From: Lentzea pudingi
GTDB lineage: Bacteria; Actinomycetota; Actinomycetes; Mycobacteriales; Pseudonocardiaceae
Assembly: GCF_014646255.1 (NCBI RefSeq)
Contig: NZ_BMNC01000001.1
Coordinates: 809,366 to 873,365 of the forward strand
DNA length: 64,000 bases
Direction: 5' to 3'
The position numbers were made by a program, and so were the translations under genes. Positions 45,558-56,298 of this stretch are shown here, one piece after another. Every line of letters begins with the position of its first letter. The stretch's first letter is position 1. The notes under the pieces were generated by a model, which worked only from the letters and a program-made list of their open reading frames with translations, was not told where the DNA came from and searched no databases.

Positions 45558-45561
<4 letters not shown>
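44488..45561 (+). CDS. GT87-family polyprenol-phosphate mannosyltransferase-like membrane protein (DUF2029)
   Basis: 357 aa with about nine membrane spans. DLRVYLAGGEAWLAGTDLYT carries the periplasmic acidic motif of GT-C enzymes, followed by FTYPPFAAMVF and LGQINLVLIGLVAL, KLTPAIFVLFF and SPVSWSHHWVW, all typical of DUF2029/alpha-1,2-mannosyltransferases (PimE-like). These add mannose from polyprenyl-phosphomannose to outer glycolipids or glycans. GTG start. Converges on the GH3 gene with a 4-base overlap. Confidence 0.83.
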
Positions 45562-47780
<2,219 letters not shown>

Positions 47781-47910: not shown

Positions 47911-48453
47911 CTATCGGCACCAGGACAGAACCGTCTCGGCGAAGTCGGGGAACTCCGCCCGCGCCGCCGCCAGCACCTCTGCGGGCGTGCGCGGCTCGAT
48001 CCCGGAGTACTTCTCGGCGACGGCACGCAGGTCCGCGTGCGGCACCCCGCTCTCCGACCCGAACTCGACGGCCTCCTGCGGCCCCACCCCGCCCGCGAGC
48101 AACCACAGGAACTCGCTGAGGCTCGTCGCGACGGGCCCGACCTCACCCTCCGACCCGAAGAACATCACGGGCTGCGCGGTCAACGGCCCCTCGCGCACCA
48201 GCCACAGCACCGCGAGCCCGCCCGTGCCGTCCTTCCCGAAGAGCCGGAACTCGGCGCCGTCCAACTCCTTGTTGCCCGTCCACGACCTGATCCAGTCGGT
48301 CGTGTCCTGCGCCGACTCGAACTCGTCGTACGGCTCGTAGTCCATGTTGCCCGGCGAGGGCTCGTCGGTCTTCTCGTCGTACTCCCACGGGAAGTCGATG
48401 CCGCTGAGGGCGGCCAGCGCGGCGGGGAAGGCGCGGTCGTCGGTGATCTCCAC
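47911..48453 (-). CDS. SMI1/KNR4-like hypothetical protein
   Basis: 180 aa, acidic. Segments GAEFRLFGKDGTGGLAVLWLV and VMFFGSEGEVGPVATSLSEFLWLLAGG resemble the SMI1/KNR4 (SUKH) fold, in which bacterial members are often immunity proteins or uncharacterised. No toxin gene is adjacent: the neighbours are a beta-glucosidase and an NB-ARC protein. Family assignment is by pattern only. Confidence 0.6.
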   Translation of the reverse strand: MEITDDRAFPAALAALSGIDFPWEYDEKTDEPSPGNMDYEPYDEFESAQDTTDWIRSWTGNKELDGAEFRLFGKDGTGGLAVLWLVREGPLTAQPVMFFGSEGEVGPVATSLSEFLWLLAGGVGPQEAVEFGSESGVPHADLRAVAEKYSGIEPRTPAEVLAAARAEFPDFAETVLSWCR

Positions 48454-48602
48454 GCGCGAACGCTACTTCAACCCGCACGCCCTCGAGAGCGGCAAGGGGG
48501 AGGTGCTCGCCCACGTCGCTAAGTGACGCGCCGCTACCCGTGTGATGGAAGATTTGGCGGCCCTCCTGGCCGTAGCTTGGACTGACGGGGAGGGCGGGAC
48601 CA

Positions 48603-50636
48603 GTGCGAAATGTGATGTCGGGCAGTGCGGGCCGGGTGGTGCAGGCGTCGTCGATCGGCACGGTGCACCTGCACAACCAGGAGCCTGTACCCGTGCCGTT
48701 CCAGCTGCCGCCAGCGCCGCGCTGCTTCGTCAGCAGGCAGGACGAGCTCGCGGCGCTGGAAGGCTGGCCGTTGCTGGTGATCAGCGGTCCGGGCGGGGTG
48801 GGCAAGACGTCGCTGGCGCTGCGGTGGCTGCACGACCGGCGCGCGGAGTTCCCGGACGGGCAGCTCTACGCCGACCTGGGCGCGCACTCGCCGAACGGGC
48901 CCGTCGCGCCCGAGGACGCGCTGGAGTGGTTCCTGCACGCGTTCGGGATGCGGGACGTGCCGGGGACGCTCCCGGCCAGGCAGGCGTTGTTCCGCTCGGT
49001 CACCGCCGGCCTCGCCTTCTCCGTGCTGTTAGACAACGCCGTGTCGTCCGCGCAGGTCAGGCCCTTGTTACCGGCCTCGGGAACAGTCGTGGTCACCAGC
49101 CGGTGGCGGCTGAGCCCGCTCGGCACCGACGCCGCGCGCTTCGTCGAGGTCGCGCCGCTCGGGCAACGGGACTCCGTGCGGCTGCTCGAAGAGCTGGTCC
49201 AGGACGACCGGCTCACCGCCGAACCCGACGCCGCCGGGGAACTGGCCAGGCTCTGCGGCGGGCTCCCGGTCGCGCTGTCGGTGGTCGGCGCACGGTTGTC
49301 GGCCCGGCCGCGGCGATCACTGGGACGGGAGTTGACCGAGTTGCGCGACGACCGGCTGCCGGAGCTGGACGACGACGCTTCGGTCGCCGCGGTGCTCGAT
49401 CGGTCCTATGTGGACCTGCCCGTCCGGCAGGCCCGCCTGTACCGGTTGTGCGCCTGGTTGCCCGGGAACGGCTTCGGGTCCGAGGCGGCAGCGGCCGTGG
49501 TGGGCGGACGGGTGGGTGACGTCGCGAAGGACCTGGAAGAGCTGGTGGAGAAGAACCTGCTGTCCGAGATCGCGGACAACCGGTTCCGCTTCCACGACAT
49601 GCTCCGCACCCACGCGCGCACCAAGGCCGACCCGACCTTGCCGGACAGCCTCCGCCGGGTGATGGAGTGGTGCGTCGCGTCCGCGGTCTCCGCTGACCTG
49701 GCCCTGATGCCTGGTCGCCAGCGGATCGGCCCGGCCTACCGCGAGGCTGTGCCGATGGCGGACGGCGCGGCCGCCTGGCTTGAGCTCGAACGGAGCAGCC
49801 TCGTCGCTGCCGTGAGGTGCGCGCCAGAACACGGCCTGTCCGATCTGGCCTGGCAGCTGTGCGAGGCGATGTGGCACCTCTTCATCAAAGGCCACCACTA
49901 CGCGGACTGGGTCGAGACCCACCGGGTCGCCATCCCGGCGGCACGCCAGTCGGGGAACCCGGTCGCGGCGGCGAGGCTCGGCACCCGGCTCGCGATGGCC
50001 TACCTCAACCTCGGCCGCTACGACGAGGCCACGGCCGAGCTCGAGGCCGTGCTGGCGGCGGGCCTCGGTGACCCGGTGAGCGAGCCGTCGGCGCTGTCGT
50101 TGCTCGGCCGGGCCCACCTCGAACGCGGGGACCCGGCGGCCGCGCTCGACTGCTACCGGCGGGTGCTCGGCGCGCGGAACGAACCCGGTCGTGAGCGCGG
50201 TGTTGCCATGGCGCGCCGGCGGATCGGTCAGGCGTTGATCGAACTGGGCCGGGCGGACGAGGCGATCGAGGAGCTCGAACTGGCCGAGTCGTTGCTCACC
50301 GATCCCGTCGAACGGGCGCGGGTGCGGACGTTCCTCGCACGGGCCTGCGCCGACACCGGTGAGCGCGACCGCGCGAGGTCGTTGCTCGACTCGGCGAGCA
50401 ACGACCTGCGCACGTCACCGTTCGACCGCGCGGACGCCCTGGTGCTGCTGGGCACGCTCGCGGACGACCACGAGCAGGCCCGGGAGCACTACGGCGCCGC
50501 GCTCGCGTGCTTTCCCGATCCGTCCGACCCTGCCGCCGTCCGCGTACGGGACCTTCTGGAACGGCACGAGCACCGCCTCGCAGCCGACGTGATCCCCGAG
50601 CAGCAGACCGGCGAGCAGCACCGCGACCCCTGCTGA
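48603..50636 (+). CDS. NB-ARC/TPR STAND ATPase (NLR-like) with N-terminal amyloid-like motif
   Basis: 677 aa. Residues 1-25 carry SGSAGRVVQASSIGTVHLH, a Gly/Val-rich V-Q-A motif. NB-ARC follows: Walker A SGPGGVGKTSLALRWLHD near 61, Walker B VLLDNA, sensor TSRWRLS, GLPVALSVVGARL, and the MHD-like FHDML. From about residue 370 there are TPR-type helical repeats (RLAMAYLNLGRYDEATAELEAV, LGRAHLERGDPAAALDCYRRVL). No DNA-binding or catalytic domain is fused. Such proteins are signalling hubs and some are phage-defence NLRs. Start GTG with GGGAGGGCGGG upstream; a second start four codons on is possible. Confidence 0.82.
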   Translation: MRNVMSGSAGRVVQASSIGTVHLHNQEPVPVPFQLPPAPRCFVSRQDELAALEGWPLLVISGPGGVGKTSLALRWLHDRRAEFPDGQLYADLGAHSPNGPVAPEDALEWFLHAFGMRDVPGTLPARQALFRSVTAGLAFSVLLDNAVSSAQVRPLLPASGTVVVTSRWRLSPLGTDAARFVEVAPLGQRDSVRLLEELVQDDRLTAEPDAAGELARLCGGLPVALSVVGARLSARPRRSLGRELTELRDDRLPELDDDASVAAVLDRSYVDLPVRQARLYRLCAWLPGNGFGSEAAAAVVGGRVGDVAKDLEELVEKNLLSEIADNRFRFHDMLRTHARTKADPTLPDSLRRVMEWCVASAVSADLALMPGRQRIGPAYREAVPMADGAAAWLELERSSLVAAVRCAPEHGLSDLAWQLCEAMWHLFIKGHHYADWVETHRVAIPAARQSGNPVAAARLGTRLAMAYLNLGRYDEATAELEAVLAAGLGDPVSEPSALSLLGRAHLERGDPAAALDCYRRVLGARNEPGRERGVAMARRRIGQALIELGRADEAIEELELAESLLTDPVERARVRTFLARACADTGERDRARSLLDSASNDLRTSPFDRADALVLLGTLADDHEQAREHYGAALACFPDPSDPAAVRVRDLLERHEHRLAADVIPEQQTGEQHRDPC

Positions 50637-50744
50637 CGGCACCGGCGGGCACACCAGGACGTCCGCGATCCCGAGCCACCGGGCCGGCGCGCGGCCGACG
50701 TGCGCGACGAGCAGCTCGCCGGCCCGCGTGACGCCGTCAGGCAC
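50415..50744 (-). CDS. Small ORF overlapping the NB-ARC 3' end
   Basis: 109 aa frame, GTG at 50744 overlapping the stop of the upstream leftward gene (50737-50739), so it could be translationally coupled. Third codon positions are nearly all G or C through the 107 bases free of other genes, as in real genes here. It begins PDGVTRAGELLVAHVG and includes a hydrophobic stretch AGVAVLLAGLLLGDHVG. The remaining 222 bases overlap, antisense, the end of the NB-ARC gene. No family recognised; a decayed or extended remnant is possible. Confidence 0.3.
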   Translation of the reverse strand: MPDGVTRAGELLVAHVGRAPARWLGIADVLVCPPVPSAGVAVLLAGLLLGDHVGCEAVLVPFQKVPYADGGRVGRIGKARERGAVVLPGLLVVVRERAQQHQGVRAVER

Positions 50745-51834
50745 GGTGCACCGGAACCGGTTCGGCGGCGCACTCCCGGTCCGGTTCGGCCAGCTCGAGC
50801 AACCGGTACATCGTGCGGCGCAGCACCGCCGCCGCTCCACCGGGCCGGGAGCTGATCGTCAGCGGCACCCGTCGTGCCTGCCGCGCCACAGGTTCGGCGA
50901 GGTCCAGCGGGGGCGCCGATCCGGCCAGTCGATCGGCGAGGCTGTTCGTCCTGACCTGCGGTGTGCGGGCGAGGACGACCGGTATTCCCGCTGCAGCGGA
51001 ATACTGCGTCACGGAGCCGTGGTCACCGACGACCGCGTCACTCGCGACGATCATCGCCCGCCAACCTTCCTCCGGCGGCACGATGATCAGGCCTGGGCAG
51101 TCGGCAAGCCATGCCCGCACCTGCCACGCGCCGTGCACCTGCCAGATGTTGGGGTGCAGGACCGCCGCGGTCCGGGTCTGCCGCGCCAGCGCGCGGTAGA
51201 AGGGGAGCAGGCTGCCGAACGTCGACCTCGCCGTCCACGTCGAGGTGATCGTCACGAGCGTCTCGCCCGGCGCGATGCCCGCGGCGGCCCGGTAGCGGTC
51301 GCGGAACGGCAGACTCGCTGTCAGCCGGTCGAAGCAGATGTCACCCGCGACCACCGCGTGCGGCACCGCTTCGGGACAGGCCTCCGACAGCAGCGCGAGT
51401 TCGTCGTCCAGCGCCAGCACGATCGCCGCCGGCACCACCCGGCCCGCTCGGGTGAGCGAGGCCCGGTCGAGACCGTGACCGTGCAGCCGCCGGGACTTCG
51501 CCGCGCTCGCGCCGTGCGGCAGCACCATCACCGGGCCGTGCACCAGGTCCGTGCCGCGATGGCTCGCGGCGACGACGAGGTCGAACCGGTGCCGCAGAGC
51601 GTTGTCCCACGGCGTCGTCGCCAAACCCCGTGCCGCGACGAACTCCTCGGTGCCGGGCGGCGATCCGGTGGGCACCGTGCACACGACCTGCACCCGTGGA
51701 TCGGCCGCGAGCAGGGGCAGCACGTCCATCAACCGCGTGCCCGCCACGAGGTGCGGCACCATCACGAGCACCTGGCGGCAGTCCGGCACGGTCACCCTGC
51801 GCTCGGCGCCGAGCCCGAACGGTTCCCACATCAC
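50737..51834 (-). CDS. GT-B-fold CDP-glycerol glycerophosphotransferase-like protein
   Basis: 365 aa. An N-terminal Rossmann-like half (VLVMVPHLVAGTRLMDVLPLLAADPRVQVV) and a C-terminal half with HPNIWQ, PEEGWRAMIVASDAVVGDHGSVTQYSAAAGIPVVLA, a pattern like the SDxSSxxxD end of TagB/TagF glycerophosphotransferases and related GT-B enzymes. Overlaps the upstream nucleotide-sugar dehydrogenase by ATGA, so the two make one product or surface glycan. Acceptor and donor unknown. Confidence 0.6.
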   Translation of the reverse strand: MMWEPFGLGAERRVTVPDCRQVLVMVPHLVAGTRLMDVLPLLAADPRVQVVCTVPTGSPPGTEEFVAARGLATTPWDNALRHRFDLVVAASHRGTDLVHGPVMVLPHGASAAKSRRLHGHGLDRASLTRAGRVVPAAIVLALDDELALLSEACPEAVPHAVVAGDICFDRLTASLPFRDRYRAAAGIAPGETLVTITSTWTARSTFGSLLPFYRALARQTRTAAVLHPNIWQVHGAWQVRAWLADCPGLIIVPPEEGWRAMIVASDAVVGDHGSVTQYSAAAGIPVVLARTPQVRTNSLADRLAGSAPPLDLAEPVARQARRVPLTISSRPGGAAAVLRRTMYRLLELAEPDRECAAEPVPVHRA

Positions 51835-53072
51835 GCCACCTCCACCGGGTCACCGGAGGAGCAGTCGAAGACCGGCACGTCGTCCCGCCGCACCGGCTCG
51901 TGCGCCGCGTGCCTGGTCATGATCAGCACGAGGTCGGCCGGCGCGGAGACGGGCTGCGAGACGAGCGTGGTCCCGTTGTCCAGCAAGAGACTCGGCACGT
52001 ACGGGTCGTGGTAGGCCACGTCCGCCTCGCCGGACAGTTCGTTGATCACCCGCACCGCGGCGGACTGCCGGACGTTCGCGGTGTCCGGCTTGTAGGTCAC
52101 GCCCGCGACGAGCACCCTGCTGCGCCGCAACGGAGGCAGCCCGCGCGCGGCGAGCGCCTCCCGCAACCGGTGCACGGTGTGCGCGGGCATGGCGTCGTTG
52201 ACCGCGATCGCCGCGTCGACCACCGGCGAGTGCAGGCCGTGCCGGCGGGCACTGGCCGTGAAGAACCCGGCCGACACCGGGATGCAGTCACCGCCCGCAC
52301 CCGGTCCCGGCCGGTGCCGCAGGAACCCGTACGGCTTGCTGCCGGCCGCCTCCAGCACCTCGTCGACGTCGACCCGCTGGGCCCGGCACAACGCCGCGAG
52401 CTCGTTCGCCAGCGAGATGTTGACCATCCTGAAGGTGTTCTCGAAGATCTTCACCAACTCGGCCGCACGGGTCGAGCTGACGGCCACGACCCGGCGCGCG
52501 ACCCGGCTCACGAACCGCACCGCGAGTTCCGTGCACCGCGGCGTGTAGCCCGCGACGACCCTCGGAACCGTGTCCACGCCGACGTTGCCCGGGTCCGTGC
52601 GCACCGGCGAGTGGGCGAGGTGGAAGTCGAGTCCCGCGCACAGTCCGGACACGGCCGCGATGCGCGGCAACACCACTTCCTCGACCGTGCCCGGCGCACA
52701 GGTGCTCTGCACGATCACGAGCGCGCCGGGCCGCATGGCCTTGGCGACCTCGTCGGCAGCCTGTGCGAGCAAAGACACGTCGAGCCGGCCGTGCCGCCCG
52801 GCAGGCGTCGGCACGCAGAGGACGTAGACGTTCGAGTGCGGAATTCCCTGCGTGCTGTGCCGCAACAAAAGCCGCCCGCTGGCCAACGCGGAATTCAGCT
52901 CCTGCTCGGTGACCGTCGTGAGTCCGCAGCCGGGCCGTTGCTCGCTGATCTCGCGAACCCGTTCCGCACTCGCGTCCACGCCGAGAACGGTCAGGCCCGA
53001 CCTCGCGGCCGCGACGGCGGTCGGCAATCCGGTGAAGCCGAGTCCGATGACGGTGATGTCGATGATGTCCAC
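51831..53072 (-). CDS. Nucleotide-sugar dehydrogenase (UDP-ManNAc/UDP-Glc dehydrogenase family)
   Basis: 413 aa. NAD loop VIGLGFTGLPTAVAAARSG, central region VCVPTPAGRHGRLDVSLLAQAADEV and C-terminal VLVAGVTYKPDTANVRQSAAVRVINEL with HDPYV are those of WecC/UgdH enzymes that oxidise the C6 hydroxyl to a uronate. The nucleophile Cys is in GAGGDCIPV, where related enzymes have GGHCIP or GGSCFP; His or Ser is replaced by Asp. GTG start with GGGAGG seven bases before it. Probably supplies a uronate sugar for the next gene's product. Confidence 0.82.
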   Translation of the reverse strand: MDIIDITVIGLGFTGLPTAVAAARSGLTVLGVDASAERVREISEQRPGCGLTTVTEQELNSALASGRLLLRHSTQGIPHSNVYVLCVPTPAGRHGRLDVSLLAQAADEVAKAMRPGALVIVQSTCAPGTVEEVVLPRIAAVSGLCAGLDFHLAHSPVRTDPGNVGVDTVPRVVAGYTPRCTELAVRFVSRVARRVVAVSSTRAAELVKIFENTFRMVNISLANELAALCRAQRVDVDEVLEAAGSKPYGFLRHRPGPGAGGDCIPVSAGFFTASARRHGLHSPVVDAAIAVNDAMPAHTVHRLREALAARGLPPLRRSRVLVAGVTYKPDTANVRQSAAVRVINELSGEADVAYHDPYVPSLLLDNGTTLVSQPVSAPADLVLIMTRHAAHEPVRRDDVPVFDCSSGDPVEVA

Positions 53073-53200: not shown

Positions 53201-53340
53201 CATGCGTGCTGTACTGCCTGCGGTTTCAGGGTGCTTTCAGTACGCCGATCGGGCTTCGAATGCGCAACTTCGCTGGAAAGCCCCCTTGGTTGGGAGCACA
53301 CTGCTTGCGGGAGAGATGCACCTGGCGAGGGGTGGCGCGG

Positions 53341-56298
53341 GTGGAGATCGCATTCAGGATTCTCGGGCGCACAGGCCTGAGGACGGCAGACGGCTTCGTC
53401 CACGACTGGGGGAAGCCGAAAGCCCGTGCCGTTCTCGCGGTGCTGTTGTTCCACGCGGGCAAGCCGGTGCCGGTGCGCACGCTGGAGAAGTGGGTGTGGT
53501 CGGGCGACGGGCCGAGCAATCCCTACCCGACCCTGCAGACCTACGTCGCCCGCATCAAGGCCGCGCTGCGCGACGCAGGCCTGCCGGGAGTGATCTCCAA
53601 TGTGGAACGCGCCTACCAGCTGGACGTGGACAGGTCGTCGATAGATCTGTACGCCTCGATCGAACTGGCGCGGAAGGCGAAGGCCGCGGCCTACCAGGCG
53701 TCACCCGACCTGGAGAAGGCGTGCGCGTTGTCCGAACAGGCGATCGCGTTGTGGAGCGGCGAGCTGTTCGCCGATCTCGACAGCGACCTCGCGTGCGAGC
53801 GCCGCGACTCGTTGGTGCGTTACCACTACCTGCCGGCCATGAACGGACTGCTGTACGGGCTGGGCAAGCTGGGCCGGTTCGAGCAGATGTTGTTCCACCT
53901 CAACGAGATCCAGCCGGAGCACGACCTCGACGTCCTGCTGGCCCGGCACCGGCTGGTGGCGTTGTTCGGGCTGCGCAAGAGGGTTGAGGCGGCGCAGTAC
54001 CACGTGAGCGTGCGACGCCGGATCGTGGCGGAGATCGCCGACGGCTCCGAGGCCGAGCTCCTCCGGCTCTACGAGGAACTGCGCTCGCGGCACGACCAGC
54101 AGAGCACACCTTCGAATGCCGGCCCGCGCCCGAGGTACCTGCCGCACGGCGCCGACGCGTTCACCGGGCACGAGACCTTGCTGGCAGAGCTCGACAACCT
54201 CGTCCTCCCGCACCCGCGACCACGGTTGGTCGCGCTCGACGGGCCGCCGGGCGTCGGGAAGACGACCCTCGCGCTGCACTGGGCGTCGTCGGTGCGGGAC
54301 CGGTTCGCCGACGGCTACTGGTTCGCGTCCCTGGACGGCGTGGCGCACGGCCCCCGCGTCGAGGCCGGCCAGGTGGTGAAGGACCTGCTGGCCGAGTTCG
54401 GTGTCGCGGCCGACTCGATCCCGTCGCTCGAGGCCCGCACGGCCCGGTTGCGCGAACTGCTGGCCAACCGCTGCATGCTGGTCGTACTGGACAACGTGGC
54501 GGACACGAGCCATGTGCGCGCGCTCCTGCCGGCCCTGTCGACCTGTTTCGTGCTCATGACGAGCCGAGCCCGCCTGAGTGAACTGGTGGTCCGGGACCGG
54601 GCCCGCTGCCTGACCGTCGACCCGCTCGGCGAGGACGAGACCGTCGCGTGGCTGCGCAACCGCCTGGGCCACCGGGCTTCCGCGGCCCCCGGCGGGGTGG
54701 TGAGGCTGGCGGCCCTGGCGGACGGCATGCCGCTCGCGATGGAACTGATCGGCGAGCAGGTCGCGGCCCAGCCACGGCGTTCGCTGGAGGACTTCGTCCG
54801 CGTGCTCGCCTCGGGCCGCGCGTTGCTGTCGCTGAGCAACGGATCCTCCGGCAGCATCCGGAACGCGTTCGAACTGTCCTATCAGAACTTGAGCGAGGAG
54901 CAGGCCACGCTGTTCCGGTTGCTCGGCCTGCACCCGGTCCGTGAGGTGTCGCTCGACATCGTGGCGGCACTGGCCGGAGTCGACCGCGAGGACGCCCGTC
55001 ACCTGGTCGACTCGTTGGTGTGGACCCGTTTGGTCGACTCGACGGACGGCGACCGCTACCGCATGCACGATCTCATCCGCGAATACGCGGCGGAACGAGC
55101 GGAACGCGACGAGCCACCGGCGGAACGTGCCGCGGCCGTGGGCAGGATGCTCGCCTGGTACACGCACACGGTGCACAACGCGGACCGCTGCGTCGTCGGC
55201 TTCCGCGAGGAGGTGCCGATGCTGGACCTGCCGCCCGGCGTGAACCCTCGTCACTTCACCGACGAGGACGACGTCGCCCAGTGGTGCCTGCAGGAGGAAG
55301 CCGCCCTGGTCGGCGTGATCAAACACGTCGCCGACCCCGAGCACATCTGGCGGCTCGCCAACTCCGTGGGCGAGCTCTTCATGCGCTACCTCCGCAACGA
55401 CACCGTCGTGGCGGTCATGGAGGCCGGCGCAGCGGCCGCGCGCGAATGCGGCGAGATCGGCACCGTGGTGGACACGTTCCAGAACGTCGGCTTCGTCCAC
55501 ATGACATATCGGCACGACCACGAGTCCGCCGATCGTTGGTTCCGCGAGGCGCGCGCGATCTTCGGCGACCGCGACGACCCCGAGACGCTGGCCGTGCTGC
55601 TGCGCAACGAGGCCGAGTGCGTGCTGCAGGGCGCCCACAACGTGCCCCGCGCGATCGAGATGTACCAGCAGGCTCTCGCGTTGGCGGTCACGGATGACAC
55701 GCGGGCGGGAATTCTGCACCGGCTCGGCGTGGCGTGCAGGGCGGGCAACCGGCTCGACGAGGCGGCTTCGCACCTCTACCAGGCACTGCACCTGCGGGAG
55801 AGACTGGGCGACGGCCTCGGTCAGGCTCGCAGCCGCCTCGAACTGGCCCAGCTCGCGTTCGACCTCGGCGACTCGTTCGGTGCCAAGGCCAGCTGTCACT
55901 TCGCGATCGGGTTGTTCCAGCAGGCCCACTCCGGTGCGGGGGAGGCGCGGGCGCTGACGTTGCTTGCGGCGATCGTCAAGGCGGACGACCTGGAGTTGGG
56001 GCGGTACTACGCGAACCGGGCGATGGAGCTGTCGCGTGGCGTGGACCGCGAGGTGGAAGCCGTCGTCAACGACGTGGCCGGCCAGATCGAGTGGCGGGCG
56101 GGGCAGCGGGAGCTGGCGGTCGAGCGGTGGCAGGCCTCGTTCTCCGCGTTCCGGGACATCAGCGACCCGAGGGCCGACGCGATCGCGGTGCATTTGGACG
56201 AACTCGCTCAATTCGTGCAACCCGAGGTACCTCTGGGACGTCTTCCATCTCAGACGGGCGTGGCCCAGGACCAAGAACTTCTGGGCGGCTTGGAATAG
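53341..56298 (+). CDS. SARP-BTAD-NB-ARC-TPR regulator (AfsR-type)
   Basis: 985 aa. Winged helix of the SARP class at about 1-95 (EIAFRILGRTGLRTADG ... NPYPTLQTYVARIKAALRDAG), BTAD at 95-245 (FEQMLFHLNEIQPEHDLDVLLARHRLVALFGLRKRVEAAQYHVSVRRRI), NB-ARC from about 275 (Walker A DGPPGVGKTTLALHW, Walker B MLVVLDNVAD, GMPLAMELIGEQV, MHDLIREYA), then TPR repeats (GDGLGQARSRLELAQLAF, IEMYQQALALAV). Binds direct repeats near promoters of secondary-metabolite genes. GTG at 53341 is chosen by likeness; the open frame before it is noise. Confidence 0.87.
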   Translation: MEIAFRILGRTGLRTADGFVHDWGKPKARAVLAVLLFHAGKPVPVRTLEKWVWSGDGPSNPYPTLQTYVARIKAALRDAGLPGVISNVERAYQLDVDRSSIDLYASIELARKAKAAAYQASPDLEKACALSEQAIALWSGELFADLDSDLACERRDSLVRYHYLPAMNGLLYGLGKLGRFEQMLFHLNEIQPEHDLDVLLARHRLVALFGLRKRVEAAQYHVSVRRRIVAEIADGSEAELLRLYEELRSRHDQQSTPSNAGPRPRYLPHGADAFTGHETLLAELDNLVLPHPRPRLVALDGPPGVGKTTLALHWASSVRDRFADGYWFASLDGVAHGPRVEAGQVVKDLLAEFGVAADSIPSLEARTARLRELLANRCMLVVLDNVADTSHVRALLPALSTCFVLMTSRARLSELVVRDRARCLTVDPLGEDETVAWLRNRLGHRASAAPGGVVRLAALADGMPLAMELIGEQVAAQPRRSLEDFVRVLASGRALLSLSNGSSGSIRNAFELSYQNLSEEQATLFRLLGLHPVREVSLDIVAALAGVDREDARHLVDSLVWTRLVDSTDGDRYRMHDLIREYAAERAERDEPPAERAAAVGRMLAWYTHTVHNADRCVVGFREEVPMLDLPPGVNPRHFTDEDDVAQWCLQEEAALVGVIKHVADPEHIWRLANSVGELFMRYLRNDTVVAVMEAGAAAARECGEIGTVVDTFQNVGFVHMTYRHDHESADRWFREARAIFGDRDDPETLAVLLRNEAECVLQGAHNVPRAIEMYQQALALAVTDDTRAGILHRLGVACRAGNRLDEAASHLYQALHLRERLGDGLGQARSRLELAQLAFDLGDSFGAKASCHFAIGLFQQAHSGAGEARALTLLAAIVKADDLELGRYYANRAMELSRGVDREVEAVVNDVAGQIEWRAGQRELAVERWQASFSAFRDISDPRADAIAVHLDELAQFVQPEVPLGRLPSQTGVAQDQELLGGLE

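Follow-up and report, generated by a model that had tools for sequence, protein, structure and literature searches.

Amyloid-type signalling by bacterial NLR proteins has until now been inferred largely from Bell-NLR pairs encoded side by side, in which a BASS motif lies at the N-terminus of the NLR and at the C-terminus of another protein (excerpts of PMC8086366 and PMC7889193). Glycosyltransferase effectors of the GT4 type have been linked to STAND NTPases in conflict systems (excerpt of PMC8195603), and the Pgl system of Streptomyces is a phage defence (excerpt of PMC12707154). The subject of this study is a gene in a 64,000-nucleotide stretch of Lentzea pudingi DNA (contig NZ_BMNC01000001.1, positions 809,366 to 873,365), here called the window. 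By its sequence, the gene product is an NLR-like (NB-ARC/TPR) protein with a conserved glutamine-centred motif in its first 28 residues. Our reading, to which we give a probability of about 0.5, is that this motif, found also on proteins that are not NLRs, is an amyloid-type assembly tag, and that a gene of predicted GT-B fold facing the NLR gene likely works with it. The NLR gene has the following features, in window positions:

48603..50636, plus strand: NLR-like protein of 677 amino acids with N-terminal motif, QLPPAP linker, NB-ARC and TPRs (open reading frame, Pfam, homologues)
48587..48594, plus strand: GGGGAGGG, likely ribosome-binding site, 8 nucleotides before GTG 48603 (sequence; probable assignment)
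48606..48686, plus strand: motif RNVMSGSAGRVVQASSIGTVHLHNQEP, core VVQA at 48636-48647 (own-genome profile match; present in homologues)
48786..48809, plus strand: Walker A GPGGVGKT, residues 62-69 (sequence)
49083..49310, plus strand: best-scoring stretch of the NB-ARC model (Pfam)
49986..50450, plus strand: TPR region (TPR_12, TPR_16 and TPR_MalT stretches)

The reading frame and peptide, which opens with MRNVMSGSAGRVVQASSIGTVHLH, are as an earlier note on this DNA had given them. The first residues, MRNVMSGSAGRVVQASSIGTVHLHNQEP, are followed by a proline-rich linker and then by Walker A. Starting at GTG 48603 gives M, one residue, and then NVM, an arrangement shared by 8 of the 10 closest homologues in the list, the window protein itself being one of the ten. 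The Pfam NB-ARC model scored 31.8 bits (cut-off 23.5) and TPR_12 scored 55.3 bits (cut-off 30.1), with several TPR models above cut-off; these scores place the protein among the NB-ARC/TPR (NLR-like) proteins.

The earlier note had also proposed a short motif ahead of the NB-ARC Walker A, and the homologues show that it is conserved. A glutamine-centred core was present in the N-terminus of 104 of the 120 homologues listed (of 3657 found), 81 of these reading VVQA. Ten others had fewer than 14 residues before the QLP linker, a start too late to tell, and the remaining six lacked the core, five of them looking late-started by reading. Because the search pattern requires a glutamine, no claim is made that this residue is invariant. 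The consensus of 21 chosen NLR N-termini is xNxxSGxxxGxVVQAGSIGxVHFH. In the L. pudingi genome (9.2 Mb in 56 contigs, labelled C3, C4, C11, C24, C29 and so on), a degenerate DNA pattern gave 32 matches versus 25 in the reversed control, which is near chance; the case for the motif therefore comes from the profile search. Profile A2, used for this purpose, has 21 rows, all NLR N-termini and one of them the motif peptide of the window NLR itself. A likely chance match in that genome, outside any gene by reading (C4:450463), scored E 0.0035. We conclude from these comparisons that the N-terminal motif is not chance; as in BASS, a short conserved motif stands at the N-terminus of the NLR.

Searching the same genome with A2 for other proteins with the motif, a check suggested in the earlier note, gave NLRs and also matches that are not NLRs. 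In a cyclase-fold protein on C24 the motif lies close to the C-terminus (E 4.6e-7), a 91-residue frame on C29 has two hydrophobic stretches and a C-terminal motif (E 9.6e-6), and a frame on C11 has the motif ahead of a hydrophobic stretch (E 5.0e-5); here and below, hydrophobic and helical character was judged by reading the sequence. The weakest match, a TPR protein on C20 (E 0.0014), is near the level of the chance match. Because a profile made from NLRs only finds the motif on non-NLR proteins, as for BASS, the genome is not one devoid of motif partners, one part of the outcome that the earlier note had named as fatal to its idea. On C29 the small frame lies between two NLR genes, all three carry the motif (L161 7298-11872), and GT-B genes flank the group on both sides, so that a partner is encoded beside the NLR there. 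The resemblance to BASS pairs thus includes an N-terminal motif on the NLR, a C-terminal motif on other proteins, an actinomycete host and, at C29, adjacency; the difference is that the constant neighbour of the window NLR is an enzyme gene and not a motif partner.

The motif was matched at E <= 0.01 in all 24 Lentzea genomes, in 117 frames in total, the best 150 candidates per genome being scored. Forty of the 117 were read, every one from outside the L. pudingi genome, and a P-loop (by pattern) followed the motif in 13 of the 20 longer frames among them. The C-terminal motif was found on helical proteins (L179, L184), on cyclase-like proteins (L172, L186) and in L222, and the motif lay ahead of a hydrophobic stretch in L173, L174, L176 and L177. 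The model of the cyclase-like family resembles class III cyclases (Ma1120 4wp9, E 5.8e-8, TM 0.70 on target). A glutamine core was present in 54 of 85 homologues of this family by a loose pattern, some of whose matches lie outside the motif; D18 and D65, presumably a metal-binding pair, were invariant in 50 aligned members.

Other arrangements were seen around these proteins. On one strand of C24 (L155 4895-8956) lie a CRP/FNR-like gene, the gene for the cyclase-fold protein with its C-terminal motif, and genes for proteins of 621 and 236 residues. On a Streptomyces coelicoflavus plasmid (L162), an enzyme-NLR pair is preceded upstream by a gene row that includes a Crp/Fnr gene and a cyclase-like gene; the product of that cyclase-like gene is 27% identical, and no such motif was seen in it. 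In the L. pudingi genome, an NLR on C3 near 801 kb (L100) begins with two hydrophobic stretches and then a motif-like stretch, and resembles a fusion of the small C29 protein to an NLR. At E <= 0.001 that genome has 57 NB-ARC matches; judged by reading the sequence upstream, many of these are SARP-like.

The earlier note expected the partner of the NLR to be an effector elsewhere in the genome that bears the motif. The existence of motif-bearing non-NLR proteins agrees with this; the constant partner, on the other hand, is not a distant motif effector but the convergent neighbour of the NLR gene:

50737..51834, minus strand: partner gene, 365 amino acids, predicted GT-B fold, TagF-like, convergent with the NLR gene (models, recurrence)

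The two genes are separated by 100 nucleotides in the window. The enzyme gene faced the NLR gene in 40 of 47 fetched loci (L106-L152, an uneven sample found via NLR peptides among the matches listed) and faced a motif NLR in 20 of the 24 Lentzea genomes. In most of the fetched Streptomyces loci, the NLR N-terminus is glycine-rich in place of the motif and the enzyme gene is kept. The enzyme model has two Rossmann domains in the GT-B arrangement and is nearest to UDP-GlcNAc 2-epimerase and TagF; a TagF-like GT-B fold is accordingly a prediction from the model. Among 28 aligned enzyme relatives, four gave weak matches to Glyphos_transf (PF04464), the best at E 0.0084, and a PDB sequence search with the enzyme profile gave nothing better than E 0.058. 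Like the GT4 effectors, the enzyme has, by prediction, a two-Rossmann glycosyltransferase fold tied to STAND/NLR proteins; in the excerpt of PMC8195603 the GT4 domain is often fused to the NTPase, whereas here the enzyme is encoded by a separate convergent gene and its model is nearest to the two proteins just named. The enzyme likely works together with the NLR that it faces.

In many relatives, a tandem repeat, mostly of 7 nucleotides, lies between the two halves of the enzyme gene. Fifty-two of 58 enzyme places were judged, six with the C half only being set aside, and a repeat was called at >=3.5 copies. Repeats were present in 33 of the 52, with a unit of 7 (29 genes), 10 (three genes) or 8 nucleotides (one gene); in none of the 33 was the unit length divisible by three. 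By frame, 15 of the repeat-bearing genes were ON and 18 OFF, versus 19 ON and none OFF among the repeat-free genes (Fisher 3.6e-5, kinship not corrected for). A second set of 24 enzyme places was less clean, with 16 ON and 2 OFF without a called repeat and 4 ON and 2 OFF with one; both OFF copies lacking a called repeat had about 2 units by eye. A third set of 31 best-scoring loci, which included one gene twice and several loci common to the 52-place set and was judged by a looser repeat rule (one 6-nucleotide unit admitted), had 16 ON and 10 OFF with a repeat and 4 ON and 1 OFF without. Over 47 loci, 24 arrays fell within the 52,805 bases of enzyme sequence; the other 724,968 bases held 8, of which two were likewise at enzyme genes. 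Two strains of Streptomyces anthocyanicus, with aligned flanks 99.3-99.6% identical, had 9.6 copies (ON) and 17.6 copies (OFF); their facing strand is annotated with short coding sequences and no full NLR. All 14 fetched Lentzea loci of the window type were ON, with no called repeat. At C29 of the L. pudingi genome, one enzyme copy was OFF, with 11.7 units.

The C29 arrays lie at L161 6733-6814 and 13500-13640, one 20-unit array being at the 5' end of a second enzyme copy. Among L120-L152 and L162-L167, many loci likewise have an enzyme gene with repeats of 7, 8 or 10 nucleotides, in ON and OFF frames.

The pattern in these relatives has the signature of phase variation; switching itself we infer from the frames and copy numbers. 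Pgl of Streptomyces is phase-variable and has a slippage-prone homopolymer repeat in one component. The present loci are similar in being Streptomyces loci with a slippage-prone repeat in one component, and differ in their genes and in having units of 7, 8 or 10 nucleotides in place of a homopolymer. Among the open-licence papers listed in our literature searches, none dealt with the switching by repeats of a Streptomyces gene linked to an NLR.

By analogy with such families, the TPRs would sense a trigger and the NB-ARC domain would oligomerise the NLR. The gathered motifs, for which the role of an assembly tag of amyloid type is predicted, could then nucleate a filament recruiting other motif proteins; candidates in the L. 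pudingi genome are the cyclase-fold protein and the small C29 protein. The fold and neighbourhood of the GT-B enzyme suggest that it would be the constant enzymatic arm and would modify a glycopolymer, either of the cell envelope or of an invader. Where relatives have the repeat, slippage may switch this arm, so that part of the population alone would pay its cost. A wider proposal is offered tentatively, as possible but open to real doubt: the NLR would signal through its N-terminal module, which is exchangeable (an amyloid tag or a membrane-active helix), and would be coupled to a GT-B gene flipped by gain or loss of heptanucleotide repeats, giving a bet-hedged actinomycete immunity. In this genome the motif is spread over several kinds of protein, and the N-terminus is the exchangeable part of an actinomycete NLR family that goes with an enzyme gene. 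Should the enzyme be switched by the repeats, these would be bacterial NLR loci with a contingency switch, directly measurable by repeat counts in colonies. Overall, the observation in the earlier note is confirmed and its interpretation partly supported; toxicity and defence roles of the system are putative.

A number of results weigh against reading the motif as an assembly tag that works with the enzyme. The earlier note likened the motif to RHIM, PP and BASS cores, a comparison that found no support in that form. The published RHIM/PP core is G-(I,V)-Q-(I,V)-G (excerpt of PMC7885112), which V-V-Q-A-S in the window NLR departs from, and a published BASS3 peptide received no score from profiles A1 and A2, so that membership in RHIM/PP/BASS3 was rejected. 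What is shared with RHIM, fungal PP and BASS3 is a V-Q centre with glycines around it, and AIQVG, SVQIG and VFQIG in some relatives approach the published core. BASS2 would be the likelier kin, because some effector-side copies read VVQARD and ARD is noted for BASS2 (excerpt of PMC9815663). The own-genome profile searches gave no second motif match within the window, so no motif partner adjoins the window NLR. Motif-like NLRs at C3:801k, C4:564k, C12 and C19 were seen by A1, which contains them, and not by A2. In eight Lentzea genomes with the motif-NLR/enzyme pair (G001, G005, G010, G013, G015, G017, G018 and G022), no motif frame of <=450 amino acids was found at E <= 0.01 among the best 150 candidates per genome; in each of ten further long motif frames read in these eight, the motif was followed by a P-loop, which in one case was recognised by eye. 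The glycine-rich Streptomyces N-terminus gave no convincing match to the helical-looking L179 and L184 (hhalign probability 5.5, E 0.0071), and homology between them is not claimed. For the enzyme, convergent gene order need not mean joint function, the sample giving the 40 of 47 loci was uneven, and the window copy has no tandem repeat. The window enzyme had no Pfam match of its own, PF04464 (CDP-glycerol glycerophosphotransferases) included, and PADLOC assigned it to no defence family or known anti-phage system; with the window NLR, PADLOC gave two weak matches, both in the TPR region.

One neighbour bears on the alternatives discussed below:

51831..53072, minus strand: UDP-glucose/GDP-mannose dehydrogenase gene, with a 4-nucleotide overlap with the start of the GT-B gene (Pfam)

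Of the 14 fetched Lentzea loci, 5 (L239-L243) have a relative of this gene close to the pair, and none was found at E 1e-4 in L106-L152. This overlap and recurrence would suit a guard model, in which the enzyme makes a TagF-like cell-envelope polymer that phages use or avoid and the NLR monitors either this enzyme or what it makes, firing when it is disturbed. The fold match to TagF, the weak matches that 4 of 28 relatives gave to Glyphos_transf, and repeats of the kind carried by phase-variable surface glycan genes are also consistent with guarding. However, an NLR is also present next to enzyme genes whose frame is OFF; an active enzyme is thus hardly required for keeping the NLR silent, and we consider guarding somewhat unlikely. 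The repeats might, instead, be neutral minisatellites or marks of decaying genes that switch nothing, as the 18 of 33 repeat-bearing genes out of frame and the S. anthocyanicus pair without a full annotated NLR on the facing strand would allow; we think this very unlikely, given units of 7, 8 or 10 nucleotides, never a multiple of three (33 of 33), and the concentration of arrays in enzyme genes (24 in 52,805 versus 8 in 724,968 bases, two of the 8 at enzyme genes).

A further alternative concerns the NLR itself, which could be an AfsR-like regulator of development or secondary metabolism without its DNA-binding part, its motif a plain protein-docking strand and not an amyloid tag. The NCBIfam AfsR model (NF053617) scored 212 bits over the NB-ARC/TPR part, and a BTAD/NB-ARC/TPR gene lies 2.7 kb downstream; yet 212 bits is far under the cut-off of 1430, and the domains listed for the protein include neither a BTAD nor a DNA-binding domain. 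The motif also occurs near the C-terminus of unrelated proteins, as a shared assembly tag would predict. A regulator with a docking strand is therefore an unlikely explanation, and an assembly tag working with the enzyme is the reading that we prefer.

The gene at 47911-48453 (minus strand) was considered as a partner and rejected; it had no Pfam, NCBIfam or PADLOC match, and of 20 fetched Lentzea loci a single one, L239, has a relative. Near the pair, 53332-56298 (plus strand) encodes the BTAD/NB-ARC/TPR (SARP-type) regulator, and 45558-47780 (minus strand) encodes a member of glycoside hydrolase family 3 that also has CBM6 and, by reading, a secretion-type N-terminus.
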